Positions 11,444-35,765 of a stretch of 64,000 bases of DNA are shown in pieces. How positions within the stretch are numbered: position 1 is the stretch's first letter; every line of letters starts with the position of its first letter. The stretch is taken from positions 1 through 64,000 of the forward strand of contig JAUIKF010000026.1 in NCBI GenBank assembly GCA_030430575.1. Reading direction: 5' to 3'. This DNA is from Bacteroidia bacterium. Lineage in GTDB: Bacteria > Bacteroidota > Bacteroidia > J057. Both the position numbers and the translations under genes were made by a program. The notes beneath the pieces are model-generated. The model was not told the origin of the DNA, did not search any database, and saw only the letters and a program-made list of their open reading frames with translations.

Positions 11444-12496
11444 ATGACTATGCTTCCAAACGAACAGGTTCTACTTAATTTAGCTATTGAAAGGCTTCAA
11501 AGAGAAGCTGGGTTATCTTTAAAATTTATCCAGAGTCAGCTTAATTGCGAGCCAAGCAATCAATTAGATGGGACGCTTGAAGTAAATGGTCGCTTTATTT
11601 TTGGGGTAGAAGCCAAACAATATATTCGCAAAAAGCAGTTAAATGGTGTTATTGATCAAATAAAAACCCTTAATGAGGTTTATCAGGCACATCCTATTCT
11701 GTTGGTGACAGATTATCTAAGTCGCCCTATCCAGGAACAACTTCGTGCCAATGATATATGTTACCTTGACTTGGCCGGGAATGCTTACCTTGAATCAAAA
11801 GACTTCTTTGTACGGATTGATGGTGACTATAAAGGCGTAATACCAAACTTCAAGAAGGAGGGATTTTTCACCCCTGCAACCCTCAAACTCGCATTTGCTT
11901 TACTGGCAGACCCTAATATTTTACCCCTACCATTTCGAGAAATTGAGCCGCTTTCAGGAGTCGGGAAAGCGACTATTTCATCTTTTTTCACCCATTTAGA
12001 AAAAGAAGGGCATCTTGAAATTGACGGTAAAAAGCGATTAGGTTTTCGTAAAAAAGAGACGCTTGCTAGTCTTTGGACACAAGCTTATGGAAAGGCCCTT
12101 AGGCCTAAGCTCTCCCTAGGTCATTTTCGTTTCTCAAACAAGAAAGCATATCACGATTGGAAATCAAATTGGCCTGGAGAACTTGACACCTTGTGGGGCA
12201 GTGAACCCGCCGCAGATCTCATCACAAATTATCTTTCTCCCGGTAAATGGACAATTTATTCTCATCTATCAAAAGTGGAACTGATGAAACGGTTTCGTTT
12301 AATCCCTGATGAAAAAGAAGGGAATGTCCATTTAATACAAACTTTCTGGCCTGAAGCTTTATCCCAGCACTTAAAGCTCCAGAAAACAGTTCCTCCATTT
12401 CTTATTTATTCGGACCTTCTTTTGTCAGAAGATTCTCGCAATATCGAAACAGCCCAACTTATAAAACGTGACTACTTGGCATATCTCTTTGGATGA
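11444..12496 (+). CDS. AbiEi-like type IV antitoxin/regulator with restriction-like N-terminus
   Basis: 350 residues. The N-terminal half looks like a PD-(D/E)xK restriction-like fold: D42, then VEAK with E56 and K58, followed by a helix and the TDYLSRP and LDLAGNAYLE strands. The middle (about 150-195) is a winged helix with SGVGKATISSFFTHLEKEGH. This layout fits AbiEi-type regulators paired with nucleotidyltransferases. The gene overlaps the next by 29 bases. Base composition is visibly more AT-rich than in neighbouring genes, suggesting transfer. By family precedent it represses or counteracts the nucleotidyltransferase; nuclease activity of the N-terminus is untested. Confidence 0.7.
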   Translation: MTMLPNEQVLLNLAIERLQREAGLSLKFIQSQLNCEPSNQLDGTLEVNGRFIFGVEAKQYIRKKQLNGVIDQIKTLNEVYQAHPILLVTDYLSRPIQEQLRANDICYLDLAGNAYLESKDFFVRIDGDYKGVIPNFKKEGFFTPATLKLAFALLADPNILPLPFREIEPLSGVGKATISSFFTHLEKEGHLEIDGKKRLGFRKKETLASLWTQAYGKALRPKLSLGHFRFSNKKAYHDWKSNWPGELDTLWGSEPAADLITNYLSPGKWTIYSHLSKVELMKRFRLIPDEKEGNVHLIQTFWPEALSQHLKLQKTVPPFLIYSDLLLSEDSRNIETAQLIKRDYLAYLFG

Positions 12497-13268
12497 TTGG
12501 GGGCGCAGTTATCTACGTCCGCACTTTCAAGCTTTGAATCGAGCTCAACAAGCCTTGGGATGCTCGTTTTGTTTAGTGGGTGCACTAGCGAAGGACCTGT
12601 GGATCGAAGGGATTCTCCAAAAACATCCTTCAAGGCTCACCAAAGATATTGATATCGCTTTCCTAGCTATTGATTATGCTGCTCGGCAGAAAGTAATTGA
12701 CTATCTGACCAAATCCGAAGGTTTTCGTTTAGTGCCAAATTCCCAAGTGGGGCTGCTAGGGCCAAACAATTATCGCTTAGATCTTCTCCCTTTTGGGCCA
12801 ATTGAAGAAAATGGATTTGTTCAACTTCCTGGGAAAAATGGGGATCTTCCTGTTCATGGTTTTGAAGAAGCGTGTAAATCTGCTGATCTCGTATTTTGGG
12901 ACAATCAATTTGCTTTTCAGGTGCTCAATCCGCCGGGAATTGTTTTGCTAAAGCTTATTTCATTTGATGATCGGCCAGATCGGCGAGGGCATGACTTAAG
13001 TGACATTCGAGAGCTTGCTACTCATTATTTTGAATTGGTTTCAGAATCTATTTATGATGTCCATCACGACCTGCTGCTACTGTATGATGAGAATGACTTA
13101 CACGGCTATCCGCTAAAAATTGGGAGTCATTTGATCGGACGCAAAATGGCAGGGTTACTTCTTCGAAATTTGCCTCTAAAACATCGAGTTCAGGGTATTT
13201 TGAGGAGGTTAATGGATCAAAAGCGAAATGGGCCTTGGTCGGCAATACTAACTGGCTTGATGGAATAA
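12468..13268 (+). CDS. Nucleotidyltransferase-fold protein, AbiEii-like putative toxin
   Basis: 266 residues starting at a GTG inside the end of the AbiEi-like gene. The pol-beta-type nucleotidyltransferase signature is visible: LVGALAKDLW (about 36-45), the metal-binding pair TKDIDIAF (Asp60, Asp62) and a third Asp in YRLDLLPFG (about 107). A C-terminal helical region follows. AbiEii-type enzymes add nucleotides to target RNAs and arrest growth, and are held in check by the AbiEi partner. The overlap implies coupled translation. The alternative is a sugar or antibiotic nucleotidyltransferase, less likely given the partner. Confidence 0.7.
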   Translation: MTTWHISLDDWGRSYLRPHFQALNRAQQALGCSFCLVGALAKDLWIEGILQKHPSRLTKDIDIAFLAIDYAARQKVIDYLTKSEGFRLVPNSQVGLLGPNNYRLDLLPFGPIEENGFVQLPGKNGDLPVHGFEEACKSADLVFWDNQFAFQVLNPPGIVLLKLISFDDRPDRRGHDLSDIRELATHYFELVSESIYDVHHDLLLLYDENDLHGYPLKIGSHLIGRKMAGLLLRNLPLKHRVQGILRRLMDQKRNGPWSAILTGLME

Positions 13269-15643: not shown

Positions 15644-18600
15644 ATGAAACGCATCCACCTCTTACTCGCGATTATTTTAGGAGGAATTGGGCTTTCTTCC
15701 AATGTCTTTGCGCAGTTGGCCCCAGAAAATCTTTCTGGAGACACCGTTTTCATCGATATGGTGGCGCTCGATCAGCCATTTATGTACAACCGAATGGGCG
15801 CAGCACAGCCTACAGGGATGATCTTCGCCCTTACAAGCGATGTAGAGGCCAAGCGTGGCAGTACCCTTGCACCAGGCAATGTACAACTCCGCAATGATAA
15901 GCGTCCCCGCCCCATTGTACTCCGCTGCAATAAGGGCGACATCCTGGTAATCAAGTTCACCAATTACCTTCGCCCTTATCGCGCCAATGACACGGTCCAA
16001 TTTTACCCTAATTTCGGCACCCATCAAGGAGACGTAAACAGCATTTACCCTGCAACCCGCGAAGCAGGTGTCCATATCCTGGGCATGCAATTGGTGAATA
16101 GCATAGCAGATGATGCATCTAATGTGGGGAGCAATGCCAGCAGCCTGGCAAAACCCGGTGAGACCAAAACCTACACCTTATTTGCTGGGGAAGAAGGTGC
16201 ATTCATCCTTCACAGCACAGCTGATGACCTAGGCGACGGCACGATCCGTGCAGGTCAAATCTCCAATGGCCTTTTTGGTTCACTCAATGTCCAGCCACCA
16301 ACGGCTGAGTGGTACCGCTCGCAGGTGACTGCCGATGAGCTATATGCTGCTACCGATCACTGGATAAATGAGTATAATCAGAAAGTGGAAAAGCCTCAAT
16401 CTGGCGATAAAGATTTTGAGAAGAAAACCCTCGCTTATCAGCTCAATGCGCCAGGATTTCCCATGATCAATTATGATGCAACGGATGCCAATGGCAAGCC
16501 TATCATCAAGATGTATGAGCAACTCCGCCCAAATGCACGAAGACTCGTGCATTCAGACCTGACAGCCATTATCGCTGGACCTGAGGATGGGTTTTTCCCA
16601 TTAGGGATAAATGATCCAGCTTTCAGCAATGTGCCTGCACAGCCAAACCGTCGTCAGCCTTTCCGCGAATTTTCTATTCACTACCACGAAGCACCGTATG
16701 CTGTACAGTCTTTCCCTGTTTTTTATGACGAAAATCCAGATACCATTGCCAACGTTACCCAGACCCTTCAAGGTGGGGTAGACCAGTTTGCTATTAACTA
16801 TGGAACAGGGGGCATCGGTGCGGAGATTTTTGCCAACAGAATCGGTGTCGGCCCTATGGCCAATTGTATTGACTGTATGTATGAGGAGTTTTTCCTCAGT
16901 GCCTGGGCCGTAGGAGATCCCGCCCAGGTGGTGGACATTCCCGCCAATGCAGCAGCAGACATCATGGAAAGAGAAAGAGAGAAAAAAGCCCTTCAAAGTG
17001 TCAATGAGACCCTCCAAGAGCAAATGTTGCGGGAAGCAGCCTTGCTTAATGGTGACCTAGAAGGTCCAGTAGCTTCTCAGGACAATACCATTGTCAGTGC
17101 TAGCAAAGCCTATTTTCCCGATGATCCTTCCAATGTCTATCACAGCTATATGAATGATCGGGTCAAATTCAGGATCAATCATACAGGCGCGGGCATCACC
17201 CATGTACATCATCAGCATGCCCACCAGTGGCTACATTCTCCTAACAGCGACAAAGGGCATTATCTCGATAGTCAGACGATAGATCCAGGTTCTAGCTATA
17301 CCCTGGAGATCACCCATAATGGAAGTGGGAACCTCAATAAAACCGTCGGTGACCAGATTTTCCACTGCCACTTCTATCCCCACTTTGCCCAAGGCATGTG
17401 GTCTATGTGGCGGGTCCATGACGTACTGGAAACTGGTTCTGTCCTCGACAAAGCCAATCGGCCAGTAGAAGGAACTAGGGCCCTGCCCGATGCAGAGATC
17501 AAAACAGGCACCCCGATTCCTGGCCTTGTACCTATGCCTGGCCTAGCGATGGCGCCCATTCCTGGAAAAGTGGCCATCAAGGATGGACAGGCCGTTTTAT
17601 TTAATGACAGCCGCAGCCCGGGTTACCCTTTCTATATTCCAGGTGTCGCTGGTCAACGTCCTCCTCACCCACCGATGGACTATGCCATAGGTCCTCGTTC
17701 TATTACCGATGAAAATGGCAATACGATCGACCTCGGTGAAGGAGCCATGTCAGGTGGTTTGCCTCGTAAAGTGACAATTGGCGGAACTGTCCCATTTGAA
17801 AACCACACCAAATATGATTGGACAAAGATCACCGATTCACTGAAGATCGTCGCCTTGCCAGAAGATGGGACGTATTATGAAAAACTAGCGATGAAAGCAC
17901 ATGCTACGCGGACCCATCAGACACTTACCCCTAGTGGAAGGGTTTCTAACTTTACCCTAAACGGACTTCCTCCTGCTCCAGGTGCACCCTACGCAGACCC
18001 TGCCATTGACGCCAATGGTATTGCCGTAGGCAAAGTAAGACGCTATAAAGCGGCCAATATCCAAATAGACGCCGTCCTCAATAAGGAAGGCTGGCACTAT
18101 CCTCAGCAGCGCCCTATCGTCCTTTGGGGAGATGTAGCTTCCACTGTCGCAGGCGACCGCCCACCGCAGCCCTTCTTCTTCCGCGCCAATTCTGGCGAGT
18201 ACATCGAATATTGGCACACCAACCTAGTGCCTGAATATTATGAGCTGGATGACTTCCAGGTCAGGACACCTACTGACGTGATTGGGCAGCATATTCACCT
18301 CGTGAAGTTCGATGTGACGTCTTCTGATGGAGCCGCCAACGGCTGGAACTATGAAGATGGAAGCCTTTCGTCTAAAACCGTGCGCGACCAGATCGAGCAG
18401 ATAAATAAAGGCGACTACCTCAGTCCCCCGCTCAATACAGGCTATACAGGTTCAATTGTAAGCCGCGCTGAGAGGACCAATCGCAGAGGACAGTATCTCT
18501 ATAAAAAAGATACGACCTTGGTCCCTTATAACCCCCTTCCTGTGTGGGGAAAAGCGCCCAAAAATCAAGACTGGACAGGGGCTCAGACGACCATTCAGCG

Positions 18601-21454
18601 CTGGTATTCAGACCCATTATTTGACAATGAAGGCAATGATCGCACCTTGCGTACCGTCTTTACCCATGATCACTTTGGCCCTTCTACCCACCAGCAGATA
18701 GGTCTTTATGCGGGTCTTTTGATCGAACCCAATGGCTCTACCTGGAAAAACCCCGAAAATGGGTCTCTCCTTGGGTTTGCGGAATTGGATACCACCCGAA
18801 ATGTGCCCACAACTTATCGCGTAGATCCTGCGACAGGTGTCCCTACTGCAACCGCTACGATGCCTGTAAGTGATGGAGGTCCTACCAACTGGCAAGCTAT
18901 CATCGAAACACTAGACAAAAGCGATAGCTATCGTGAATTCATGTTCGAGTTCCAAGACAATCAGCAAGCCTATACCAAGGATAGCCGCGCAGAGCCAGAC
19001 CTTTATCCCGAGTATTTTTATGGAACCAATAAGGGAACCAATTTTAGAGATAGTGTCAACAATAGCTATCGCGGATGGATCGACCATGAGCATGTCATTA
19101 ATCCTCCGCCTGCGCAAGCTGGGCAATTTGTGACGCCAGAACTGGTCTCGACCGGTAACAGAGGCTCACTCTCTACCAACTATCGGAATGCGCCGCTTCC
19201 GCTTCGCGTGCAAGGCGCACGCCAGCGTTCTCGTGCAGGCGATTTGGCCTTTGTCTTCAGTTCGCTACCGACAAGAGGGATCGCTTCCCTCAACTCACAA
19301 CCTACGCCAGGCTATATTGCCAAGGGCAAAAATAAGTTTACCTGGCCCGTCCAGCCGATCTCGTCAGGCATGCTTGGCGGAGACCCTTATACGCCGCTGG
19401 CACGTGCCTACAATGGGGACAAGATTCAAGTCCGGACCTTGGTAGGCTCTCACGTGAATCCGCATTTCTTTAATATTCATGGAGTAAAATGGCTATTTGA
19501 GCCAAGTTTTGAGAATTCAGGCTGGCGTTCAACCCAGATGATGAGTATCTCGGAGCACTTCGAAATGAATTTCCGCCTGCCCAATGCCGAAGGCAATGGG
19601 GATGGGATCACCGATTACCTCTATAAGACCAGTGCCGACATGACAGGCATGCAGAACGGTATGTGGGGACTCATGCGCTCGTATGATTCTACCCAGAACA
19701 ATCTGCAACCATTACCCAATAACCCGATCTCCAGAATAGACGACGCACGCAGAAATCCTGCCCAAGCACAAAACTGTGGGTGCCCAGCAGATGCGCGTGT
19801 TCGCGAATATGATGTGACTGCCATTTCGATCGATAAGCATGATATTCTGGGTAAAAATTGGGGAAAACTCCTTTACAACCAGACATTCAGGAATTTTGAT
19901 TCGAAGGCGATCATCTTCCTCCGCACCGAAGATGTACATGCTTTCATGCATGAGCCTGGATTTGAACCAGAACCATTGGTTCTTCGTGCAGCCGCTGGTG
20001 AATGTATCAAAGTGACCCTTTGGAATGACATCACCGATAAGTTTGTAGCTAATTCCTCTGCTGTAGGATTTTCCACCTCTTCCAATAACCAGTCAGGCTT
20101 CCCGTATACGACCTCCTATATCGTAGGCTTACACCCCGAATTGCTTTCCTATGACGTCAGTAAATATGATGGAAGCAATGTAGGGGTAAATGAACCAGGC
20201 AAGCAGACCCTTCCTCAAGGGGATGGTTCTGTGACTTATGAATGGTATGCAGGTCAATGGGTTGAGACAAGTGAAGGCGGATATGCGGCCCAGCCTGTTG
20301 AATTTGGTTCTTGCTTGCTTACCCCTCCTGATCCGCTATTGCAATATGTAGCAGGACTATTTGGGGCGGTGATTGTAGAGCCAGCAGGTACGTATTGGGT
20401 AGAGGATAAAAATGAATTTACCTCCTATACTTCTGCCAATGTCTACGAAAGTGAAGCTGCGTTTAAGAATGGTGCGAAGCCGATGTTCCGTGAATTTGTC
20501 ATGATCTTCCAGGACAATTTAGACCTACTCGCAGAGCCGATCGGTGATCACACGGGAGCCATCGCTTCTGCAGGACTGAATTATAAATCAGCTCCGCTAG
20601 GCAGCCGCCTGTTCAAAGATCCAGAAGGGGACATCAACTTCAACCAAGTAGACGTTTCAGCCATTACTTCCAACCTCACTATCCTCAATGAACCTGCTAC
20701 GCCTACCTTCGCTGCTACGGCTGGTACGCCTATCCGCTTCCGCCTCCTCCATCCAGGAGGATCAGGAGATGGCATCAACTTCATCCTTCACGGCCACAAC
20801 TGGCAGGAAGAGCCTTATACCGATGGTTCTACCAAACTAGGCAACAACGAGCTTTCCCAGTGGCTGGGCTATCGCGGGCAATTGGGTTCGCTGAATGCAT
20901 TTGATTTATTGATCAATAGTGCCGGAGGCAAATTTGGCGTGGCGGGAGACTATCTCTACCGCGATTATAGAAATGCACCATTCCAGAATGGCACCTGGGG
21001 CCTCTTCCGCGTTACCAGCGGAAAAGATGCGCCGATCATCACAAGCATCGACGACGATCCTGTGAAGAATACCTTCTGGGGAACCAATACAGTAGATCCC
21101 AATACAGGCTTCTATGCGACCAAAGTAAGCCTGATGAATGGAAGTGTGGAAGTCGCCAGTGCCGATGTGGATCAAGCCAATGGCACTTGGTTTATGCCAG
21201 ATGTGAATATCCCTGCGGGACAACCGCTTACCATCACTTCGACCCTCAGAGACGGCAGTCAAGGCGGCAGCCGCACCTATTCGGTAGAGGAGCTAGAAGC
21301 CCTCGGCGAACTTCCAGAACGTGTCATCATGGCGCCTATCGTCCGTCCCGCTGCCAAGCAAGTTGAACCCGGTGAAAACAATAGTCGCGGCCAGAGCAGA
21401 GGCAGAGCGCCCAAGCGGACTCCTGGCCATAATACGAGAATCAATCGAAAGTAA
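15644..21454 (+). CDS. Giant extracellular multicopper oxidase, MofA/MnxG-like, permuted copper motifs
   Basis: 1936 residues with a signal peptide (about 1-24, ending NVFAQ) and repeated cupredoxin-like domains. Copper motifs appear in permuted order. First is HVHHQHAH (H520, H523, H525: HxxHxH). Next is HCHFYPHFAQGM (574-585: HCHxxxHxxxxM, the type 1/type 3 motif), then QHIH (883-885) and HDHFGPSTHQQ (1008-1018). Degenerate cupredoxin copies follow (H1270/H1274/H1279; HGHNW at 1716-1720). The first domain has only HILGMQ, so it is probably copper-free. An NCIDC pair (about 409-413) has no heme histidine. The C-terminus is basic, without a T9SS motif. It oxidises a substrate with O2; Mn(II) is the best guess from family resemblance and from the neighbouring SCO and cytochrome genes. 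Confidence 0.88.
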   Translation: MKRIHLLLAIILGGIGLSSNVFAQLAPENLSGDTVFIDMVALDQPFMYNRMGAAQPTGMIFALTSDVEAKRGSTLAPGNVQLRNDKRPRPIVLRCNKGDILVIKFTNYLRPYRANDTVQFYPNFGTHQGDVNSIYPATREAGVHILGMQLVNSIADDASNVGSNASSLAKPGETKTYTLFAGEEGAFILHSTADDLGDGTIRAGQISNGLFGSLNVQPPTAEWYRSQVTADELYAATDHWINEYNQKVEKPQSGDKDFEKKTLAYQLNAPGFPMINYDATDANGKPIIKMYEQLRPNARRLVHSDLTAIIAGPEDGFFPLGINDPAFSNVPAQPNRRQPFREFSIHYHEAPYAVQSFPVFYDENPDTIANVTQTLQGGVDQFAINYGTGGIGAEIFANRIGVGPMANCIDCMYEEFFLSAWAVGDPAQVVDIPANAAADIMEREREKKALQSVNETLQEQMLREAALLNGDLEGPVASQDNTIVSASKAYFPDDPSNVYHSYMNDRVKFRINHTGAGITHVHHQHAHQWLHSPNSDKGHYLDSQTIDPGSSYTLEITHNGSGNLNKTVGDQIFHCHFYPHFAQGMWSMWRVHDVLETGSVLDKANRPVEGTRALPDAEIKTGTPIPGLVPMPGLAMAPIPGKVAIKDGQAVLFNDSRSPGYPFYIPGVAGQRPPHPPMDYAIGPRSITDENGNTIDLGEGAMSGGLPRKVTIGGTVPFENHTKYDWTKITDSLKIVALPEDGTYYEKLAMKAHATRTHQTLTPSGRVSNFTLNGLPPAPGAPYADPAIDANGIAVGKVRRYKAANIQIDAVLNKEGWHYPQQRPIVLWGDVASTVAGDRPPQPFFFRANSGEYIEYWHTNLVPEYYELDDFQVRTPTDVIGQHIHLVKFDVTSSDGAANGWNYEDGSLSSKTVRDQIEQINKGDYLSPPLNTGYTGSIVSRAERTNRRGQYLYKKDTTLVPYNPLPVWGKAPKNQDWTGAQTTIQRWYSDPLFDNEGNDRTLRTVFTHDHFGPSTHQQIGLYAGLLIEPNGSTWKNPENGSLLGFAELDTTRNVPTTYRVDPATGVPTATATMPVSDGGPTNWQAIIETLDKSDSYREFMFEFQDNQQAYTKDSRAEPDLYPEYFYGTNKGTNFRDSVNNSYRGWIDHEHVINPPPAQAGQFVTPELVSTGNRGSLSTNYRNAPLPLRVQGARQRSRAGDLAFVFSSLPTRGIASLNSQPTPGYIAKGKNKFTWPVQPISSGMLGGDPYTPLARAYNGDKIQVRTLVGSHVNPHFFNIHGVKWLFEPSFENSGWRSTQMMSISEHFEMNFRLPNAEGNGDGITDYLYKTSADMTGMQNGMWGLMRSYDSTQNNLQPLPNNPISRIDDARRNPAQAQNCGCPADARVREYDVTAISIDKHDILGKNWGKLLYNQTFRNFDSKAIIFLRTEDVHAFMHEPGFEPEPLVLRAAAGECIKVTLWNDITDKFVANSSAVGFSTSSNNQSGFPYTTSYIVGLHPELLSYDVSKYDGSNVGVNEPGKQTLPQGDGSVTYEWYAGQWVETSEGGYAAQPVEFGSCLLTPPDPLLQYVAGLFGAVIVEPAGTYWVEDKNEFTSYTSANVYESEAAFKNGAKPMFREFVMIFQDNLDLLAEPIGDHTGAIASAGLNYKSAPLGSRLFKDPEGDINFNQVDVSAITSNLTILNEPATPTFAATAGTPIRFRLLHPGGSGDGINFILHGHNWQEEPYTDGSTKLGNNELSQWLGYRGQLGSLNAFDLLINSAGGKFGVAGDYLYRDYRNAPFQNGTWGLFRVTSGKDAPIITSIDDDPVKNTFWGTNTVDPNTGFYATKVSLMNGSVEVASADVDQANGTWFMPDVNIPAGQPLTITSTLRDGSQGGSRTYSVEELEALGELPERVIMAPIVRPAAKQVEPGENNSRGQSRGRAPKRTPGHNTRINRK

Positions 21455-21755: not shown

Positions 21756-23693
21756 GTGAAGGATTTAAGCATTTTCTTTTCTCTAAGGTATTCAATAGGT
21801 GTTTTCTTGCTCACATGGTTCTCCCTGCCATTTTTCACACTGGCACAACCATCATCAGATACGCCATCACCTAATACCCAAACCGTCATCGACGAAGGCA
21901 TTCAAATTGCCTTCAGCATGATACATGTGGACAGCACAAAGACGCCTGGCGTCTTCTTTGAAGGCGACGACATCCTCTTTCGATTTGAGATCACAGATAC
22001 CCTCACCGGGCAAGGCATCTCAGGTGCAGCCCCTGCGGCATGGATGGAGCCTGGCACTAGCGCAGATGCAACAGAATGTAAGCAGAAAATAAGCGCTTTT
22101 GTAGGAGGTAGCATCTTCAGCCGTGCGGAGTTAGACCTCAATGTCTACTATGTGCTTGTCATGAATGATGATGCCACCATTACCGTCGTAGATCCCTTGT
22201 TCGGATTTGGAGGAACTCAATTGCTGGCGCTGATCGGGCTGGAAAGCCCAGGGATGGATTGGGCAAAAGGGAAAAAACAAGAAAAAATCTTTGTGAGCCT
22301 TCCTTTAGTGGGGAAAGTCGCTGTGATCAACACCTTCAACTGGAAAGTGATGGAGTACATCCCACTCAACGCAGAGCCCTACTCCACGACGATTCAGCCA
22401 GACGGGGCTTATTTGTGGGTCGATTTCACGTCGAATAAAATTGAAGGCTTCTCAGGCGTAGCAGTCATTGGCACGGACAATCACCTACTCAAGAAGACCA
22501 TACAAACGGGTGCTGGCGCACACGAGGTTGTCATCACCGATGACAACCGCTATGCCTGTATCACCAATGCCGATGCCCAAACGGTCTCAGTCATCGACGT
22601 AGCTACGCTCCAAAAAGTCAAAGACATTTCGCTTGATGAGAAGCCCGTTTCGATGACTTGGTCATCTTTGGCAAAGGCAGTGTATGTAGCGGCAGCCAGT
22701 GGCAAAATCTGGGTCATCGACCCTGAGCGGCAAAAGGTCATCACTATGGTTCAGGCACGAGCAGGCCTCAGTCAGCTCAGTTTTGAGCCCACGGGTCGTT
22801 TGGCATTTATCGTAAATACCCCACAAAGCCTCATACAAATCCTCGACGCTGCGAGCAACCGCATCGTACAGACAGGAGACATGGAGCCTGAGCCTGACCA
22901 GGTAATGTTCTCAGATGAGATTGCTTATGTACGCCACAAAGCCAGCGAACAAATCCTCATGATCCCCTTGGATCAGGTAGGACAAGAAGGCCAACGCTTG
23001 CAGGCAGCAGACTTTCCGGGCGGACAACATCCCGCTGGCAAGTGTGACATGCCTAGCCTGGCACCTGGCATGGTCCAGGCACCTGGCGGCAGCGCCATGC
23101 TCCTCGCCAACCCGATGGACAAAGCCATTTTCTACTACATGGAAGGCATGGCTGCCCCCATGGGGAGCTTCTCCAATTATAATCGGACGCCGAGAGCCGT
23201 AGAGGTCATCGACCGTAGCTTGGAAGAACGCGCCACAGGCGTGTATGAGACAGTAGCCAAGATTCGTGGCTATGGTGAGTATGATATCGCTGTCTTTTTG
23301 GATGTCCCTAGAGTCACACATTGCTTTGAAGCTTTTGTGCAAATAGATGAAGACAAAGAGATCGAGCGGAAAAGGGAAAAGATCGGCAACGTCGCCGTCG
23401 AACATTTAACCTCCACCTCATCCCTTAAAGCCAATAAAAAACATCAACTCCGCTTTCGTTTGATAGACCCCTTTACCAAAGAACCCTTGGTAGGACTCAC
23501 AGATGTAGCAGTCCGTGGAACCTCTCCCAGCAATTGGTTTTTTGAGGAAGTGGCTGACGAGCAAACGGAAGAAGGGGTCTATACCTGTGAAGTAGAATTG
23601 CCTGATACAGGCATTTATTATATCTATGTAGGGTGCCCGTCCAAAGGACTGGCATTTAACAATCCTCAGTATTTGGTACTGAGGGGAATTTAG
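21756..23693 (+). CDS. Secreted YVTN-type beta-propeller protein of the copper oxidase locus
   Basis: 645 residues; GTG start followed by a hydrophobic export signal (about 8-30, ending TLAQ). A short beta domain (about 45-150) precedes a propeller (about 165-400) with YVTN/YncE-like blades: KVAVINTFNWKVMEYIPL, GAHEVVITDDNRYACITNADAQTVSVIDVAT (about 251-281) and SGKIWVIDPERQKV. A Met-rich stretch follows (about 430-480, including YYMEGMAAPMGSF), then an Ig-like C-terminal domain. The Met-rich part and the context suggest a partner, scaffold or copper handler for the oxidase, but no cofactor motif (no CxxCH) is present. It precedes the SCO gene by 116 bases. Confidence 0.75.
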   Translation: MKDLSIFFSLRYSIGVFLLTWFSLPFFTLAQPSSDTPSPNTQTVIDEGIQIAFSMIHVDSTKTPGVFFEGDDILFRFEITDTLTGQGISGAAPAAWMEPGTSADATECKQKISAFVGGSIFSRAELDLNVYYVLVMNDDATITVVDPLFGFGGTQLLALIGLESPGMDWAKGKKQEKIFVSLPLVGKVAVINTFNWKVMEYIPLNAEPYSTTIQPDGAYLWVDFTSNKIEGFSGVAVIGTDNHLLKKTIQTGAGAHEVVITDDNRYACITNADAQTVSVIDVATLQKVKDISLDEKPVSMTWSSLAKAVYVAAASGKIWVIDPERQKVITMVQARAGLSQLSFEPTGRLAFIVNTPQSLIQILDAASNRIVQTGDMEPEPDQVMFSDEIAYVRHKASEQILMIPLDQVGQEGQRLQAADFPGGQHPAGKCDMPSLAPGMVQAPGGSAMLLANPMDKAIFYYMEGMAAPMGSFSNYNRTPRAVEVIDRSLEERATGVYETVAKIRGYGEYDIAVFLDVPRVTHCFEAFVQIDEDKEIERKREKIGNVAVEHLTSTSSLKANKKHQLRFRLIDPFTKEPLVGLTDVAVRGTSPSNWFFEEVADEQTEEGVYTCEVELPDTGIYYIYVGCPSKGLAFNNPQYLVLRGI

Positions 23694-23809: not shown

Positions 23810-24910
23810 ATGAACTCACTCAAACATACCTTTCTTTTGGCAGTGGCCATGATCTGGCTCGGAAACATAGCCCTTGGGCAGAAGTCCTGCTGTGAGCCTG
23901 GCAACGCAGAGACCAGCGTCAAAATTGGCGATGTCACCATCTCCGATGTGAGCCTCCTGAATCAGGAGGGCGAAACGGTCAAGTTCCATGAACTTGTCAA
24001 GGACAAAGTCGTGGCGATGAACTTCATCTTTACGACCTGTAAGACAATCTGTCCACCCATGGGCGCCAATTTTGCCCAGTTGAAGAAACGCATGGAAGAC
24101 CATGTCGGAAAAGACTTGGCGATGATTTCTATTAGCATAGATCCTCAAAATGACACCCCAGAACGCCTCAAAGCCTGGAGTGAGAACTTCTCCGCCGGGC
24201 CAGGCTGGACGCTCTTGACGGGCGATAAAGCCACCGTCGATCAGCTCCTCAAAGACCTCAAGGTCTTTACGCCCTTGAAGGAAGAGCATGCGCCCATCAT
24301 CCTCATGGGCAAGGAATCTGGAGGCGACTGGATTCGCACCAATGGCCTTGCAGCGCCTGACAAACTGGCTTCCCAGCTCGAAAAATATTTTGCCGTGGAA
24401 GAGCCGCTTGACGCAAAAGGCCGGCAAGACCAATCCTATTTCACAGATACCTACCTCGTCAATCAACATGGGGAGTCTTTTCGCCTCTATTCTGACCTGA
24501 TGCGTGGAAAGGTCGTCGTAATCAATCCGTTTTTTGCGGAATGCCCTGGTTCGTGCCCAGCGATGCACACGACGTTGAAGGAGGTGCAGCGTCATCTCGG
24601 GGAGAAGATGGGCAAAGAAGTGGTCATTTTGTCAATCACAGTAGATCCCCTCACAGATACCCCTGAGAAGCTAGCTACTTACGCTGAACAGTTTGAAGCA
24701 GGTGCAGGCTGGCATTTCCTATCGGGGAAAGTGCAGAATGTACAGGTGGTATTGAAAAAATTGGGTAAATATGTAGAAAATCGAGAAGCCCATGACACCA
24801 TCTTTTTGATGGGAAATATGGATACAGGCCTATGGAAAAAGGCCAATGGGCTGGCTGCGCCTGGGGATATCATTGAGGTATTGAACTCGGTGATCGAAGA
24901 TAAACTGTAG
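23810..24910 (+). CDS. Tandem SCO1/SenC double-domain copper chaperone
   Basis: 366 residues: a signal peptide (about 1-23) and then two SCO1/SenC thioredoxin-fold domains. Domain 1 has TTCKTICPPM (C77, C81) and a distal His in KEEHAPI (H160). Domain 2 has AECPGSCPAM (C245, C249) and H328 in REAHDTI. Both CxxxC + His copper sites are intact. DPQNDTPERL and DPLTDTPEKL are the matching loops. SCO proteins deliver Cu or reduce disulfides for cuproenzymes, and the neighbouring multicopper oxidase is the obvious client. A CC pair at residues 27-28 near the mature N-terminus is an extra potential metal site. A fused duplicate is unusual. Confidence 0.9.
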   Translation: MNSLKHTFLLAVAMIWLGNIALGQKSCCEPGNAETSVKIGDVTISDVSLLNQEGETVKFHELVKDKVVAMNFIFTTCKTICPPMGANFAQLKKRMEDHVGKDLAMISISIDPQNDTPERLKAWSENFSAGPGWTLLTGDKATVDQLLKDLKVFTPLKEEHAPIILMGKESGGDWIRTNGLAAPDKLASQLEKYFAVEEPLDAKGRQDQSYFTDTYLVNQHGESFRLYSDLMRGKVVVINPFFAECPGSCPAMHTTLKEVQRHLGEKMGKEVVILSITVDPLTDTPEKLATYAEQFEAGAGWHFLSGKVQNVQVVLKKLGKYVENREAHDTIFLMGNMDTGLWKKANGLAAPGDIIEVLNSVIEDKL

Positions 24911-25101: not shown

Positions 25102-25545
25102 TTGAACCTAAAACTCAGAACCCTGAACTTTCTTCTCCTCCTCCTCTGCCTTAGCTTCGCAGTGGAGATGGACCTCTCGCCAGCGGAAGCGGCGGGAAAG
25201 AAGCTGTATATGACGGGCAAAGGAGCATCAGACCAGCCGGTAACGGCATTGATGTCGGGGGTTTCGGTACCTGCTACGGTGATGCCTTGTGTGAACTGTC
25301 ATGGGAAGAAGGGATTGGGGCAAAGTGGCGGGGAAATGGCTCCGCCGAATATCACTTGGAAAGCACTGAGTCATGCCACCGAATCAGCAGATAGGCAGCG
25401 CCCATCTTACACAGAAAAAACGCTCAAACGCGCCATCACGATGGGACTCAACCCTGACGGAGAAGCCCTGAAACAAGTAATGCCGCGCTACCAAATGACG
25501 ATGGAGGATATGACTAATTTATTAGCGTATTTGAAGCAATTATAA
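25102..25545 (+). CDS. Small secreted cytochrome c
   Basis: 147 residues with an export signal (about 8-21) and one heme motif CVNCH (residues 63-67). The likely distal Met is in QVMPRYQMT (about 125-133). It is monoheme, class I-like. The TTG start is chosen because it includes the signal peptide. The start region overlaps repeat words (CCTAAAACTCAGAACC). It lies downstream of the SCO gene in the same direction and could accept electrons from, or donate to, the oxidase/propeller system, as the cytochrome encoded with mofA is thought to do. Confidence 0.85.
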   Translation: MNLKLRTLNFLLLLLCLSFAVEMDLSPAEAAGKKLYMTGKGASDQPVTALMSGVSVPATVMPCVNCHGKKGLGQSGGEMAPPNITWKALSHATESADRQRPSYTEKTLKRAITMGLNPDGEALKQVMPRYQMTMEDMTNLLAYLKQL

Positions 25546-25560
25546 CATGAAGGAGGAATT

Positions 25561-27030
25561 ATGAAGAAGATGATTCGCATCATACATGACATGAAGGATT
25601 TAGCGCCGTTAGTCGGTGGAAACGGGAACTACGTGCGTGCTGACCTTCTTGGAGAGACGGACCTCCCAGCACACATTTTTTCGGGTGAAACAAGCATATA
25701 TGCCTTGCGGAGTCAGGCCGAAGGAGGCGCTTATCTGGGCAGCCTTGCTACTCGTCATGAAGCGCTTGTACAGGCTGCAGCATCTTTCAACCTAATCGAA
25801 TTGGAAGGAGAACGGGACCTGGTGCCATTTGTCTTGAAGCATATTTCGCCTGCTCAGCGGCTGATTTCATGGCATGGAGCTGCTAGCAAGCTAGAGGCCC
25901 TTTCAGCGCGCTTGGCGCGCTACCGTCAGGTCCCAGCGGCCTATTATCAGTTGGTACCTTTTGCTACCCGATCAGGGGACGAGATTCCTCCTTTAGCCTT
26001 ATTATCTCAACAATCTTCTCCTAAAGACCTCATCACTTATGCCGCAGGACCTATCGGTCGCTGGACGCAGATAGTGGCCGCTTTTTTAGGCGCGCCAATG
26101 GTTTATTTTGTGGAAGAATCAACCCCTGCAGAAACATTTTTCACCCATACCCAACTCGTCTCAGACTACCATTTACCCAATACTTACCCCATCAAACAGT
26201 TATTTGGGATTGTGGGGAATCCTATTTTCCGTTCGCTTTCTCCTCGACTCCACAACCATGCCTACCGCCAACTGGGCTTGCCCTATTTGTATTTGCCTAT
26301 GCAGGTAGAAGTCTTTGCAGATTTTTGGAAAATGATCAAAAGTAACCAGGCAAGCTCGCTATTGGGCCTGGAGTTTTGCGGTTTCACGACCGTTTCCCCC
26401 ATGAAAGAAATGGCATTCCAAACTGCTGACACTTGTCACAATGACCACGTCTTGGCTTCTCAGGCTAGCAATCTGTTGGTGAAAAGAGGGCAGAAATGGT
26501 TGGCAAGCTCAACAGATGATTTTGGACTAAAAAAAGCATTAGAAGACGCAGAAATAGCCATATCAGGGTTAAAAGTAGCAATTGTCGGATGTGGAGGGGC
26601 AGGCAGGACAATGGCTGCCTATCTGAAAGCAAATGGTGCCCAAGTCACCCTGGTGAATCGCTCACTCAAGCGCGGACAGTTTGCAGCTCAACAATTAGTC
26701 CTTCCTTTTACCCTAAAAAAGGCCTTTTCCCCTGGCACCTACCAATTGGTGATCAACGCAACTCCGCTGGGCAAGCGGCCAAACCAACTCGCTTTTGACC
26801 CTAATTTAATGCCTTCAAATGGCATTGTCATTGACATGTCTTACGCGCCTCATGAAACACAGATGATTCGCATGGCGCGCCTGCGAGGGCTAAAAGCTAT
26901 TGATGGCCGTCAGATGCTCCAGTATCAAGTGGCGCAGCAGTTTCAGGAGATGACGGGGGAGGCGGAACGTTCGAGTGTTCGATTGTTCGAGGGTTCGAGT
27001 GTTGAGCCTGCTCCTAAAACTCCTGTTTAA
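25561..27030 (+). CDS. aroE: Fused 3-dehydroquinate dehydratase-like / shikimate dehydrogenase
   Basis: 489 residues. The N-terminal part (about 1-195) resembles type I dehydroquinate dehydratase: H105 in SWHG is at the catalytic His position. The Schiff-base Lys position appears to be Gln130 (YYQLVPFA), so this half may be inactive. The C-terminal part (about 213-470) is shikimate dehydrogenase: GIVGNPIFRSLSPRLHN (215-231), the catalytic Lys282 in TVSPMKE, STDDFG (317-322) and a GCGGAGRT nucleotide loop (343-350). The order is that of plant DHQ-SDH bifunctional enzymes. The last 20 or so residues are read from a dispersed repeat. It starts 15 bases after the cytochrome stop, probably by chance rather than function. 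Confidence 0.82.
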   Translation: MKKMIRIIHDMKDLAPLVGGNGNYVRADLLGETDLPAHIFSGETSIYALRSQAEGGAYLGSLATRHEALVQAAASFNLIELEGERDLVPFVLKHISPAQRLISWHGAASKLEALSARLARYRQVPAAYYQLVPFATRSGDEIPPLALLSQQSSPKDLITYAAGPIGRWTQIVAAFLGAPMVYFVEESTPAETFFTHTQLVSDYHLPNTYPIKQLFGIVGNPIFRSLSPRLHNHAYRQLGLPYLYLPMQVEVFADFWKMIKSNQASSLLGLEFCGFTTVSPMKEMAFQTADTCHNDHVLASQASNLLVKRGQKWLASSTDDFGLKKALEDAEIAISGLKVAIVGCGGAGRTMAAYLKANGAQVTLVNRSLKRGQFAAQQLVLPFTLKKAFSPGTYQLVINATPLGKRPNQLAFDPNLMPSNGIVIDMSYAPHETQMIRMARLRGLKAIDGRQMLQYQVAQQFQEMTGEAERSSVRLFEGSSVEPAPKTPV

Positions 27031-27185: not shown

Positions 27186-27590
27186 ATGAATTACACTAAA
27201 ACAGAAGACTTACTGGGCACAGTAGATGGCCCGCTTGAGATAGACTTCACCCCTTACCTGGGCGATTGGATAAACACCAATCCAGAGACGGGATTGGCAA
27301 AAAAACTGTCTTTGGGAGTAAGGAATGGCACCCTCTATTTAACAGCCTATGGGGTGGGCAAAGATGGCCTTATCGAATGGGGGGAATCGCCATGCATCCC
27401 TTTTACCGACGCTGTAAACTCGTCGACAGTTCTCGCTTTTAGGACCGAATATGACTTTGAAACCATGAAAATTCAGATGGTATCTAATGTCAAGCGAGGT
27501 ACGCTGGTCTTGCAGTTATACACCACCTTCAAAGACGGAAGCCCTCGTTTCAACTATTACAACCGTGAATTCTTCGCGCCAGCGGGATGA
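27186..27590 (+). CDS. Lipocalin-like small protein, first of a pair
   Basis: 134 residues, cytoplasmic, beta-rich. The N-terminal phrase YLGDWINTNPETG recalls the GxW start of lipocalin/avidin-like barrels, and the end NREFFAP matches IREFFHK of the 117-residue protein encoded at 27874. The two are paralogues that share the spacing of GxWxNTN, an alternating-strand middle and an REFF C-terminus. It may bind a small hydrophobic molecule or cofactor; this is inference from fold appearance. A GAGACCGCT-family repeat begins directly after its stop codon. Confidence 0.6.
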   Translation: MNYTKTEDLLGTVDGPLEIDFTPYLGDWINTNPETGLAKKLSLGVRNGTLYLTAYGVGKDGLIEWGESPCIPFTDAVNSSTVLAFRTEYDFETMKIQMVSNVKRGTLVLQLYTTFKDGSPRFNYYNREFFAPAG

Positions 27591-27873: not shown

Positions 27874-28227
27874 ATGTCTCAACCACACGACTTCGGATAT
27901 TTGCCAGGCACCTGGCGAAACACCAATAAACTCACCAAAGGCATCATCACCTTTACGCTTGAAGCAGCAGATAATCAACTAATGCTCACTCTTCAAGGAG
28001 CAGCAGGCGGCTACTTTTCTCCTGAGATGGGCACTGTCGAGATGCAATGCTTTCACGCGGCTCCCGACAGTTCCAAGGTGATTGGATTCTTCAGTGCGCT
28101 TCAGGATGCTGATCAGGAACTCAAACTTGCCTGCAACCTCAATAAAGGCTTGATCATCATTGCCACTTATATCACTGTCGGCAGCACTTCTTTTTTCATC
28201 CGTGAATTTTTCCACAAAATATCATGA
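27874..28227 (+). CDS. Lipocalin-like small protein, second of a pair
   Basis: 117 residues and a paralogue of the gene at 27186: LPGTWRNTN (about 10-18) near the start and FIREFFHK at the end. Its stop codon overlaps the ATG of the flavoprotein gene (ATGA), so translation is coupled and a functional link to that enzyme is likely. It could act as a carrier or accessory barrel for the flavoprotein's substrate. Strand-rich composition and the absence of a signal peptide suit a cytosolic barrel. No precise family name is asserted. Confidence 0.6.
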   Translation: MSQPHDFGYLPGTWRNTNKLTKGIITFTLEAADNQLMLTLQGAAGGYFSPEMGTVEMQCFHAAPDSSKVIGFFSALQDADQELKLACNLNKGLIIIATYITVGSTSFFIREFFHKIS

Positions 28228-29456
28228 GGCCACAATCACCTAACTCCTATCAACAAGCATTAGTAGCCAAGGCACGAGAAATCGCCCAAGCCCGCCTTGC
28301 GGCGCGGGCAGATCATCACGATCGTGAGATGGTTTTTCCGAAAGAGAGTCTTCAAGACCTCTCTGAAGCAGGCTTGACAGCCAGCCTGGTAGACAAGGCC
28401 TTTGGCGGTCTTGGGCTAGGTCACCACCGAGGAGACATTCTCACTCACTGGCTGATTGTCAAAGAAATCGCCAAGGCTGATATGGCCCTGGCGCGCTGCT
28501 TTGAGGGCCATGCCAATGCCATGCTGCTCATCGACTGTATCGCCGACGATGCCCAAAAGGCCCGTTGGTTTGAGGGGGTTGTGAACCATGGGCATAACTG
28601 GGCTGTGTGGAGCGGCGAGCCACAAGTCGTAAAGCCTGGCCAAAAGCAACGCTTTGGCACGTATGTGAAGGAAACGACGGACGGCTATTATGTGGATGGG
28701 AGCAAAGTATTTTGCTCCAGTGCACCGGGTGCCGACTGGGCGATCTTGATGGTCAGTACCAAAGGCCCTGGCGGCGCACGGCATGCCACATCAGCCCAAG
28801 ACCTGATCATGCTCGCTTGTGACCTTCGTGATCCGTCCGTCACGGTCGACGACTCATGGTGGGACCCGATGGGCATGAAAGGTTCTGTGAGCTATCTGGT
28901 ACGCTTTGAAGAGACTTTTATTCCCAAAGAAAACCTAATCGGCACCCCCGGCCAATACCTGCATGAAGACTGGCAGACGCGCTTTACGCCCCAATATACA
29001 GCCACTTTTCTGGGAGGCGCAGAAGCTGCCTATGAATACGCCTTAGCCTATATCCAGAAACAGCAATCTCAGCAAGACCCTTATGTTCAGCATCGAATCG
29101 GTAAGATGGCCATCCACCTCGAAACATGCCGTATGTGGCTGGCACGCACCGCACACCTGTGGGAAACAGGTGAGATCCAGGAAGCCAAACTGGCCGGCAA
29201 TAGCACTCGCTACCTCGTCGAGCAATTGACGATGGAAGTGGTCAATCATGCCATTCACATTTGTGGGGCACGCAGCTTGATCCGCCCCAGTGCATTGGAA
29301 CGCATCTACCGCGATCTCTCCTTTTATGTCCGTCATGACAATGATGACCAGGTCCTGGCGATGGTAGGAAAAGCGAACCTGGGCGTAGCTCACGATGCTT
29401 CTTTCTTTCATGCAGGGAAGGAAGACCGCTCGGCCCGAGGACGGGCCTCGCTATGA
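28224..29456 (+). CDS. Acyl-CoA dehydrogenase-fold flavoprotein, possibly a monooxygenase
   Basis: 410 residues with the acyl-CoA dehydrogenase layout: an N-terminal helical part (about 1-125), a middle beta domain (about 126-230; VDGSKVFCSSAPGADW) and a C-terminal four-helix part. DKAFGGLGLG and HICGARSL are family phrases. The usual catalytic Glu is not evident, so this may be a DszC/SfnB-type flavin-dependent monooxygenase or desaturase. Two LLM monooxygenases downstream and the coupled lipocalin-like gene upstream support an oxidative pathway. The last ten residues (DRSARGRASL) are translated from a dispersed repeat. Confidence 0.75.
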   Translation: MRPQSPNSYQQALVAKAREIAQARLAARADHHDREMVFPKESLQDLSEAGLTASLVDKAFGGLGLGHHRGDILTHWLIVKEIAKADMALARCFEGHANAMLLIDCIADDAQKARWFEGVVNHGHNWAVWSGEPQVVKPGQKQRFGTYVKETTDGYYVDGSKVFCSSAPGADWAILMVSTKGPGGARHATSAQDLIMLACDLRDPSVTVDDSWWDPMGMKGSVSYLVRFEETFIPKENLIGTPGQYLHEDWQTRFTPQYTATFLGGAEAAYEYALAYIQKQQSQQDPYVQHRIGKMAIHLETCRMWLARTAHLWETGEIQEAKLAGNSTRYLVEQLTMEVVNHAIHICGARSLIRPSALERIYRDLSFYVRHDNDDQVLAMVGKANLGVAHDASFFHAGKEDRSARGRASL

Positions 29457-30028: not shown

Positions 30029-31543
30029 ATGCTTACCTCACTTCGAAAAATACCGATAACCATTTGGGGCCTTGCCTTTGGCTATTTTGCTTTCTATGTG
30101 CCATATGGCGCCTTGACCAAGGCCCTATCGCGTGGGCTTGTCCCAGGCGTAGAAGGGCCCATTTCAGGCTTTGAAATGCTACCAACCGTGGTCATAGGGA
30201 CCTTTTTTGCCCTTGTCATCATTCTGTCCATTATGGGTTGGTGGAAATATGCGAGCCACCATAAAGTCCTTGGGGTCAATATCCCATTTGTCAGTAACCG
30301 ATGGACCCTTTTTTCTGGGCTCGGCACGGCCTTTATTATCATGACCACTACGCTGGCCTATAGCTTTACAGGAATTTCGATTGTATTTGCGGCCCTGCTC
30401 ATGCGCGGCGGGGTATTGCTATTGGCTCCTGTAGTAGATCTGGTTTTTGGGCGAAAGGTGCACTGGTATTCGTGGATAGCGCTGGGGCTGAGTTTATTGG
30501 CGTTACTGCTGATATTCGCGGAAAAAGGAGGCTATCAGTTGACGATTGTTGCAGGCTTAAACATTGCCTTTTACCTCTCAGGCTATATTTTTCGCTTGCA
30601 ATACATGACCCATATCGCCAAGTCCAAGGACCGTGAAACCAACTACCGTTTCTTTGTGGAAGAAATGCTGGTTGCCATGGCAGCTATCGTCCTGATTCCC
30701 GCCATCCTGGCCCTGATAGGCTATGGGAATATCATGCAAGACCTGCAAACGGGTTTTGTGACATTCTTAGCGACACCTATAGCCCTTCCAGCCCTTGGGA
30801 TCGGTGCTTTATATGCCTGTCTGTACATCTTTGGGACAAGGATTTATTTGAATAAAAGGGAAAACACTTTTTGCATTCCCATCAACCGCTGTGCGAGTTT
30901 GCTTGCGGGCGTGGTGGCTTCCTTGTTATTAGGCCTAATCATCGGCGAAAGCTTTGTCTCCTCAGCCCAGTTGTTTAGCGCTAGTATCCTTGTTTTAGCG
31001 ATTTGCTTTCTGAGTTTCCCTGTTTTTCAGCAGTATTTTGGATGGGGAAAAATGGGCAGCCTTGCCGCAGCTCCCAAAGCGGTATACCTCTTTGTATGCC
31101 CAGGCAATACGGGCCGCTCACCGATGGCCCAGGCCATCTGCGAGTCACAACTCACAGCTCAGTTACATCAGCGAGGCATCAATATCGACAAAGCAGGCAT
31201 CCAGGTGGTCAGTGCAGGCATTTCCCCCAAGGAAGGCACCCCTCTGAGTCAGGATGCCCATGATGCATTGGTAGAATTGGGCGTGAAGCCGCCAATTCAC
31301 TTTTCCCAGCAACTCACGACTCAACAAATAAGAACAGCCAATAAAATTTTCTGTATGTCAGAAGCCCACCGTACAGAAATCATTCGAAGATACCCCCCTG
31401 CCATTCTTAAAACTTTTTGCCTGGATCCAGCATCTGACGTCCCCAACCCACACGGCAAAGGCGTTGCGGCCTATGTCGCCTGCGGAAAGCGGATGCAAGA
31501 ACTGGTCAGTAAGGCGATGGAGGCAAAATTAATACAGGTCTGA
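30029..31543 (+). CDS. EamA/DMT-like membrane transporter fused to low-molecular-weight protein tyrosine phosphatase
   Basis: 504 residues. Residues 1-340 contain about ten hydrophobic segments in a drug/metabolite-transporter-like arrangement. Residues 350-504 form a cytoplasmic LMW-PTP/arsenate-reductase-like domain. The P-loop VCPGNTGRSPMAQ has the Cys357-x5-Arg363 signature, and the general-acid loop is LDPASDVPNPHG (Asp466). VVSAGISPKEGTPLSQDA is the typical middle segment. The Cys that usually precedes Arg in this loop is Gly here. Possible roles are phosphatase control of export or detoxification of an exported anion. The fusion is uncommon and there is no frameshift at the junction. 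Confidence 0.8.
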   Translation: MLTSLRKIPITIWGLAFGYFAFYVPYGALTKALSRGLVPGVEGPISGFEMLPTVVIGTFFALVIILSIMGWWKYASHHKVLGVNIPFVSNRWTLFSGLGTAFIIMTTTLAYSFTGISIVFAALLMRGGVLLLAPVVDLVFGRKVHWYSWIALGLSLLALLLIFAEKGGYQLTIVAGLNIAFYLSGYIFRLQYMTHIAKSKDRETNYRFFVEEMLVAMAAIVLIPAILALIGYGNIMQDLQTGFVTFLATPIALPALGIGALYACLYIFGTRIYLNKRENTFCIPINRCASLLAGVVASLLLGLIIGESFVSSAQLFSASILVLAICFLSFPVFQQYFGWGKMGSLAAAPKAVYLFVCPGNTGRSPMAQAICESQLTAQLHQRGINIDKAGIQVVSAGISPKEGTPLSQDAHDALVELGVKPPIHFSQQLTTQQIRTANKIFCMSEAHRTEIIRRYPPAILKTFCLDPASDVPNPHGKGVAAYVACGKRMQELVSKAMEAKLIQV

Positions 31544-31631
31544 GTGTCTGATAGTCTGATTGTCTGAACGTAATGCTTATGCTAATCAGACATCCAGACT
31601 ATCAGACGTTCAGACACTCAAACGTTCAGAC
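31541..31631. repeat. Inverted run of GTCTGA / TCAGAC words
   Basis: Left: GTGTCTGATAGTCTGATTGTCTGAACG. Right: CAGACTATCAGACGTTCAGACAC. These can pair across an 18-base spacer and end directly at the ATG of the first LLM gene. A longer in-frame N-terminus for that gene would be translated from this repeat, which argues for the ATG at 31632. Confidence 0.55.
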
Positions 31632-34973: not shown

Positions 34974-35765
34974 ATGTCTTTCATCTCAACTGCTACCCTG
35001 CAATTCCCTTATTTTGACCATCAACTCGGTCACCCTGATTGGCGGGGCAAAAAAGTCCTCGACTTTGGGGGAAATGTGGGCAATATCCTCGGCGACCCCA
35101 AGTGTACCATTGACCACGACCATTACTGGTCCCTAGATGTATCCCGAGATGCCATTGAGGAAGGGAAGAGGCGCCACCCAGCGGCGCATTTTGTGTTTTA
35201 TGACCGCTATAATTTTTCCTTTAACCCTACAGGTATTCGGGATCTTCCTATTCCCGATTTAGGGGAAAGGTTTGATTATATCATCTCTTACTCTATTTTT
35301 TCCCACACAGGGAAAAAGGAATTGCTGGATACCATTGCAGAATTGCGGAAGTTTCTCGCCCCTGATGGAAAGCTCATTTTCACCTACCTTGATCCAGACT
35401 TCAATGCATCCACCGAACACCCAGGCTACCTGGACATGACGAATTTTGAGAAGCGCGTACGCCGCTTAAATGACGGTGTCCTCCGGCCAGAACTCATGGC
35501 CCAGAATCGGGATGCCGACTGGAGCATTCTCCTCAACCGTGACGACCTCTACATCGAGCAAGACGATCATCAGCCCTATAACCTGGCTGATCAAGACACG
35601 TATTTCTCCTTTTTCCGAACAGCTTATATCCACACCCTATTTCCCACAGCCATTACCTTACCTCCGCCTGCTTTTCCCTATCCGCCAGACTATCCTGCGG
35701 AGATGCAGCATGCGTGTATATTGAAGCGTTCAACGGATGAAGGTTCAAGTGTAAGCGATTTTTAG
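34974..35765 (+). CDS. Class I SAM-dependent methyltransferase
   Basis: 263 residues. Motif I is KKVLDFGGNVGNIL (about 26-39), followed by WSLDVSRDAIEEGK; FDYIISYSIFSHTGKKEL is motif IV and LRKFLAPDGKLIFTY motif VI. It probably methylates a sugar or glycan precursor, judging from the flanking glycosyltransferase genes. The final residues (TDEGSSVSDF) come from the repeat words found at other gene ends. It follows the GT4 gene by 38 bases, so they are probably co-transcribed. Confidence 0.82.
   Translation: MSFISTATLQFPYFDHQLGHPDWRGKKVLDFGGNVGNILGDPKCTIDHDHYWSLDVSRDAIEEGKRRHPAAHFVFYDRYNFSFNPTGIRDLPIPDLGERFDYIISYSIFSHTGKKELLDTIAELRKFLAPDGKLIFTYLDPDFNASTEHPGYLDMTNFEKRVRRLNDGVLRPELMAQNRDADWSILLNRDDLYIEQDDHQPYNLADQDTYFSFFRTAYIHTLFPTAITLPPPAFPYPPDYPAEMQHACILKRSTDEGSSVSDF

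Follow-up and report, generated by a model that had tools for sequence, protein, structure and literature searches.

An mnxG-type operon in a Bacteroidia genome that runs into candidate genes for small-molecule tailoring

The genome of a Bacteroidia bacterium (assembly GCA_030430575.1, contig JAUIKF010000026.1) encodes a multicopper oxidase of the MnxG type that is the first gene of an mnxG-type operon, and this operon runs, without a change of strand, into genes for putative enzymes of the kinds that usually tailor and glycosylate small molecules. The window, meaning the whole stretch of 64,000 nucleotides that was analysed, carries fifteen plus-strand genes between positions 15644 and 38495, of which 11 lie beyond the genes for the oxidase, a beta-propeller protein, an SCO protein and a cytochrome. 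This downstream cluster is the more unusual part of the locus, rather than the oxidase, and the best explanation of the whole is probably that an exported, glycosylated small molecule from the cluster works with the MnxG-type oxidase. What manganese oxidation does for the cell is, according to the available text of PMC11930936, still unknown; an oxidase branch that travels with biosynthetic genes is a testable handle on that function, and the cluster suggests a tie between metal oxidation and small-molecule production. The fifteen genes are the following.

15644 to 21454, plus strand: MnxG-type multicopper oxidase, 1936 aa, with an N-terminal Sec-type signal recognised by eye
21756 to 23693, plus strand: YVTN/cytochrome-d1-like beta-propeller protein, 645 aa, with a weak YtkA-like match at the C-terminus
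23810 to 24910, plus strand: protein with two SCO1/SenC domains, CxxxC in each
25102 to 25545, plus strand: mono-haem c-type cytochrome, short form, with one CxxCH
25561 to 27030, plus strand: dehydroquinase-like and shikimate-dehydrogenase-like protein
27186 to 27590, plus strand: predicted calycin (lipocalin/avidin-like) 8-strand barrel protein 1
27874 to 28227, plus strand: barrel-family paralogue 2
28224 to 29456, plus strand: acyl-CoA-dehydrogenase-like flavoprotein with weak likeness to SfnB, DszC and methanesulfinate monooxygenase
30029 to 31543, plus strand: membrane protein with, by eye, many transmembrane segments and a fused low-molecular-weight tyrosine-phosphatase domain
31560 to 32714, plus strand: luciferase-like (SsuD-like) FMN monooxygenase 1
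32784 to 33878, plus strand: luciferase-like (SsuD-like) FMN monooxygenase 2
33994 to 34935, plus strand: glycosyltransferase (group 1)
34974 to 35765, plus strand: SAM methyltransferase
35977 to 36837, plus strand: GINT1_N-type protein
37035 to 38495, plus strand: protein with a C-terminal Methyltransf_24 domain

Four motifs of the oxidase are taken here, by analogy with known multicopper oxidases, to provide its copper ligands.

17201 to 17218, plus strand: HVHHQH, residues 520-525, putative T1, T2 and T3 histidines, conserved in 90 of 90 aligned rows
17363 to 17398, plus strand: HCHFYPHFAQGM, residues 574-585, putative T3/T1 ligands and axial Met
18290 to 18298, plus strand: HIH, residues 883-885, putative T2/T3 ligands
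18665 to 18673, plus strand: HDH, residues 1008-1010, putative T3 ligands

In an alignment of 90 oxidase rows that includes the window protein, H520, H523, H525, H883, H885, H1008 and H1010 are present throughout, H574, C575, H576 and H580 in all rows except one with a gap (89/90), and M585 in 88; the predicted ligand set for four coppers is complete. The fourth motif extends to HDHFGPSTH (residues 1008-1016), in which H1016 is common (84 of the 90 rows), yet not within the usual HxH ligand pairs. An earlier note on this DNA had placed the four motifs correctly, at 520-525, 574-585, 883-885 and 1008-1016, and its remark that the first domain has lost the HxH is consistent with the absence of any HxH ahead of residue 346. 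Because the long T1 motif, HCHxxxHxxxxM, appeared in none of 20,000 shuffles of the oxidase protein, the motifs are not attributable to chance, an origin that this test rules out; HxxHxH arose in 524 of the same shuffles. The oxidase may act outside the cell, as the earlier note inferred; its N-terminus resembles a Sec signal by eye, and no type IX sorting domain was found in it with Pfam. Such domains are present in three other proteins of the window, which makes an origin in Bacteroidota probable from the sequence itself.

The oxidase scores 1073.2 bits against the NCBIfam MnxG model NF041487 (E printed as 0). It stays far below the curated cut-off of 3100, which an MnxG equivalog must exceed, and is by its sequence a member of the MnxG-type family outside the curated MnxG equivalog. 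Among its relatives, the protein of Pseudomonas jinjuensis reaches 3818 bits, above the cut-off, and that of Priestia 333. The oxidase matches no Pfam family at E<=0.01, and a sequence search of the PDB with a limit of E=1 gave a single match, Bacillus sp. PL-12 MnxG (9bxa, E 1.2e-90). The alignment consists of five colinear pieces, of which two are weak. Counted by hand, H580 corresponds to residue 340 of the 9bxa chain, which is alanine there; the title of the entry is 'Mnx H340A'. A structure model of residues 487-1046 has a mean pLDDT of 72.9, which drops below 50 for residues 89-99, 397-418 and 523-533 of the model, in or beside three of the copper motifs. The best PDB match of this core model is again 9bxa (Z 11.9, 353 residues aligned, rmsd 3.1, 32% identity), and the next are ordinary multicopper oxidases at Z<=10.0. 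The family assignment proposed in the earlier note is upheld by the NF041487 and 9bxa matches and by the gene order of the Pseudomonas putida mnxG operon, and as far as the sequence tells the oxidase would work like MnxG.

In the window oxidase HxxHxH and the T1 motif precede HxH and HDH, and the order of ordinary laccases and bilirubin oxidases, with HxH first and HxxHxH and HCH last, is not found. This reversal had been singled out before; it is present, but it is not special, being a published rule of the family: in the available text of PMC3600357, every six-domain bacterial oxidase that was analysed carries its T1 site in domain 2, and its trinuclear centre lies between that domain and domain 3. 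The same text gives family lengths of 1217-2681 aa, among them PputGB1_2447, the MnxG of P. putida GB-1, which is like the window oxidase in family and in length (1944 versus 1936 aa). At least 1936 aa are found in 13 of the 90 rows, the window included (median 1783, from ORF lengths), and a description of the protein as very large does not hold. Nor do the extra scaffold domains once suggested for it, given the five pieces colinear with Bacillus MnxG across residues 109-1792; the longest of the poorly shared stretches is formed by the last 144 residues (mean occupancy 0.27). Unusual size and permutation were both rejected as novelties, as both are ordinary for bacterial six-domain MnxG-type oxidases. 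MnxG of Bacillus is shorter, at about 1,220 residues, and according to the available text of PMC5622069 it depends on the partners MnxE and MnxF.

The putative mnxG operon of P. putida GB-1, as listed in Table 4 of PMC11409713, comprises mnxG, a YVTN beta-propeller gene, SCO1, a second SCO1, a binding-protein/cytochrome c gene and SurA. The window has the same order of oxidase, beta-propeller, SCO, SCO and cytochrome c, which identifies the oxidase, on gene content and order, as the first gene of an mnxG-type operon. The two SCO units are fused in the window, where one double-SCO protein (23810-24910) stands against two separate SCO genes in P. putida. Whereas the cytochrome of the P. putida operon carries a binding-protein domain, that of the window lacks the periplasmic-binding domain that a longer relative carries; and whereas SurA is the sixth gene in P. 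putida, the tailoring cluster begins at that place in the window. MofA of Leptothrix discophora, compared by its description in the available text of PMC8218464, is likewise a multicopper oxidase of large size, and its operon includes a cytochrome c gene. In that operon mofB is a macrophage infectivity potentiator (mip) gene, and no mip-like domain was found among the window neighbours scanned.

Within the best 80 of 354 stretches that encode oxidase relatives in the genome collection, a beta-propeller homologue occurs anywhere in the locus in 61, an SCO homologue in 59 and a full-length cytochrome in 39; for the 59 loci with at least 6 kb downstream, the corresponding numbers are 52, 50 and 35, with all three in 34. 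Anammox bins (Jettenia and Kuenenia, loci L035 and L087) have an MnxG-type oxidase together with beta-propeller, SCO and cytochrome genes, and Pseudomonas jinjuensis (L092, 9944-25752) has three MnxG-type oxidase ORFs in tandem, the third truncated at the end of the stretch.

The proteins encoded downstream resemble parts of a biosynthetic pathway. In the family of the shikimate-dehydrogenase-like protein, the dehydrogenase Lys and Asp, which we take to be catalytic, are present in every one of 19 rows (17 distinct), and the dehydroquinase Lys is kept in ten of the 19, not including the window protein. The signature of calycins is a barrel of eight strands, a GxW close to the N-terminus and an Arg in the final strand. 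The model of barrel protein 1 has eight strands (pLDDT 91.8), and G26, W28 and R127 are invariant in the 26 rows of the family; the model fits avidin with Z 11.0 over 105 aligned residues (rmsd 2.8), the best Foldseek E-value is just 3.9e-3, and the single PDB match by sequence has E=1. As modelled, barrel protein 1 has the features of a calycin and resembles avidins and lipocalins. Locus L095 has two homologues of the Methyltransf_24 protein in the place of one. Other loci add an FMN reductase, PhyH and TauD dioxygenases, more glycosyltransferases and an acetyltransferase; the family-model search found neither FMN reductase nor dioxygenases in the window.

Genes of at least two cluster families were found in the examined flanks of 19 of the best 80 loci, and none in those of the other 61, a split that is partly circular because the family models were built from these same loci. 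The 19 cluster-linked loci belong to Bacteroidota (eight), Chlorobiota (one), Acidobacteriota (six) and Pseudomonadota (four), and the order and strand of the cluster genes vary among them; 13 of the 19 have the beta-propeller, SCO and cytochrome genes as well. The nearest full-length oxidase, at 59% identity, is that of a Saprospiraceae bin (L040), and named strains of Aquimarina and Aureisphaera carry the cassette.

Cluster-linked oxidases are also grouped on the oxidase tree. On a tree of 90 oxidase rows built from core columns only, the cluster label changes five times, versus 18.4 times when shuffled, and on a tree of 81 rows, which omits L009-L014 as well as L022, L025 and L093 (short), three times versus 18.0; none of 500 shuffles was as low in either case, and near copies contribute to the low counts. 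The tree is anchored to MnxG solely through P. jinjuensis. In the 81-row tree, a group of 16 tips made up exclusively of cluster-linked rows has weak support (62/82), a group of 10 from Bacteroidota and Chlorobiota has support of 100/97, and four of the 20 cluster-linked rows (L021, L026, L031 and L071) lie outside the 16-tip group.

The flavoprotein gene is present in 22 of 65 oxidase genomes examined, which cover 65 of the 80 loci, and absent from 43. It was found in all 15 that had been picked for visible cluster genes, five of which lack it in the stretch first examined, and in seven of the 50 others (E<=1e-50). Three of these seven also have it within the examined stretch; in the genomes of L029, L030, L034 and L049 it lies away from the oxidase, and the oxidases fall outside the grouping on the tree. 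The idea that the cluster accompanies every MnxG-type oxidase is refuted by these genomes and by the 61 loci without cluster genes in the examined flanks; an oxidase of this type thus does not in itself require the cluster.

The oxidase and the cluster do not follow taxonomy either. Neither the oxidase (E<=0.001) nor the flavoprotein gene (E<=1e-30) was found in any of 39 relatives, and among 395 genomes of the phylum the oxidase occurs in one, the source genome itself (8.16 Mb); a distribution that follows taxonomy was rejected on these counts. The flavoprotein gene was found in the centre genome only among 395 genomes of the order of Aquimarina. Seven of 297 Acidobacteriota genomes have the oxidase, and two of these seven, one of which was the centre of the sample draw, have the flavoprotein gene. 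Barrel matches of at least 55 bits, a line drawn after the weak matches were known, occur in the same two genomes, and the other five oxidase genomes had neither; weak partial barrel matches of 39.6-50.2 bits in five Acidobacteriota genomes without the oxidase were set aside.

These distributions bear on the explanation, rather unlikely in our estimate, that the protein is a plain Mn(II) oxidase like MnxG of P. putida and that the cluster is a mere neighbour, placed there by chance or by the transfer of one island. The first four genes do reproduce the mnxG operon, cluster genes are missing from the examined flanks of 61 of the 80 loci, and absence of both oxidase and flavoprotein gene from the relatives is expected of one transferred island. 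However, cluster genes stand near the oxidase in four phyla, in differing orders and on differing strands, and the cluster-linked oxidases are grouped on the tree. The linkage makes a joint function of oxidase and cluster likely but unproven, judging from genome sequences.

Plasmids provide a second setting for the cluster genes. Of 72,556 plasmid records, two encode flavoprotein homologues of more than 55% identity, from Nostoc UHCC 0926 and Gloeothece verrucosa PCC 7822; the remaining nine that match are at 28.5% identity or less, and the barrel query hits the same two records exclusively. Both are absent from the 30 plasmid records matched by the window oxidase. About 22 kb of the Gloeothece plasmid (L115) encode homologues of the flavoprotein, one luciferase-like monooxygenase, FMN reductase, four barrels and a glycosyltransferase together with a multicopper oxidase, so that flavoprotein, monooxygenase, glycosyltransferase and barrels are shared with the window cluster. 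In the Gloeothece oxidase the motifs follow the ordinary order, and the ORF encodes 593 aa (fewer in the annotation), in contrast to the MnxG-type order and 1936 aa of the window oxidase, and no homologue of the beta-propeller, SCO, cytochrome, shikimate-dehydrogenase-like, GINT or membrane-phosphatase proteins was found at that locus. In Nostoc the flavoprotein and barrel genes are far apart, with no T1 motif near either; a barrel pair (L132, 17527-18333) is situated there amid ORFs that look nitrogenase-related by eye. The membrane-phosphatase protein has plasmid matches limited to its membrane part, in two regions of which the other cluster-family models found nothing, and the shikimate-dehydrogenase-like protein has no plasmid match at E 1e-25.

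Taken together, the linkage in the 19 loci and the Gloeothece locus suggest, short of proof, that an oxidase belongs to the pathway. The Gloeothece locus also speaks for another explanation, equally doubtful to us, in which the oxidase finishes the organic product of the cluster in the manner of a laccase and a metal is not its substrate: there the cluster homologues and the FMN reductase surround a multicopper oxidase of ordinary motif order. This support comes from one locus, however, and 13 of the 19 cluster-linked loci retain beta-propeller, SCO and cytochrome; among characterised proteins, those closest to the window oxidase oxidise Mn.

Oxidation of Fe(II) or Cu(I) is common among multicopper oxidases. 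It is nevertheless improbable that the window enzyme oxidises copper or iron to detoxify or take up metal, with a metallophore as the small molecule. This general frequency, the SCO domains nearby and, next to the Nostoc flavoprotein gene, ORFs that by eye resemble a siderophore-type ABC importer speak for it, but the Nostoc reading concerns one locus, and Pfam revealed no metallophore receptor in the 36 window proteins scanned, all from the part up to 54134.

The favoured explanation, joint action of the MnxG-type oxidase and an exported glycosylated small molecule, can be set out as follows. The oxidase would be exported through the inner membrane and its copper loaded with the help of the SCO domains. 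Its T1 copper would take single electrons, foremost from Mn(II), with Fe(II), Cu(I) and organic donors as further possibilities; O2 would be reduced to water at the trinuclear centre, and the cytochrome may relay electrons. The neighbouring enzymes would make and glycosylate the small molecule, which, once exported, may be a ligand of Mn(II)/Mn(III) or a compound finished by the oxidase. A more speculative extension, which we consider less likely than not, is a novel pathway in at least five phyla with a dedicated multicopper oxidase as an integral part. Its product, a glycosylated metabolite, would either receive its last step from the oxidase or carry the Mn(III) that the enzyme forms. The oxidase of this pathway would usually be a giant MnxG-type protein with a copper-loading operon, replaced by an ordinary multicopper oxidase in a cyanobacterium; the other parts would be a shikimate-dehydrogenase-like enzyme, flavin-dependent and in places 2-oxoglutarate oxygenases, paired calycin barrels, glycosyl- and methyltransferases and a membrane exporter. 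No published report of a linkage between an MnxG-type oxidase and a biosynthetic cluster was among the literature matches listed, from a search that mostly did not extend to subscription journals.

Several other genes surround these loci. Proteins of a family of about 700 aa adjoin cluster-linked oxidases at L027 (11508-13607), L068 (16304-18460), L036, L053, L066 and L082; the single member scanned matched no Pfam family at E<=0.001. In the window, scans for Rfam families and for tRNAs found none. Ahead of the oxidase, at 11444-13268, an AbiEi-like antitoxin gene is followed by a weak AbiEii-like toxin match, likely a type IV toxin-antitoxin pair. Right after the cluster, at 39110-39925, the window encodes a BTAD-domain (SARP-like) protein that could be a cluster regulator.
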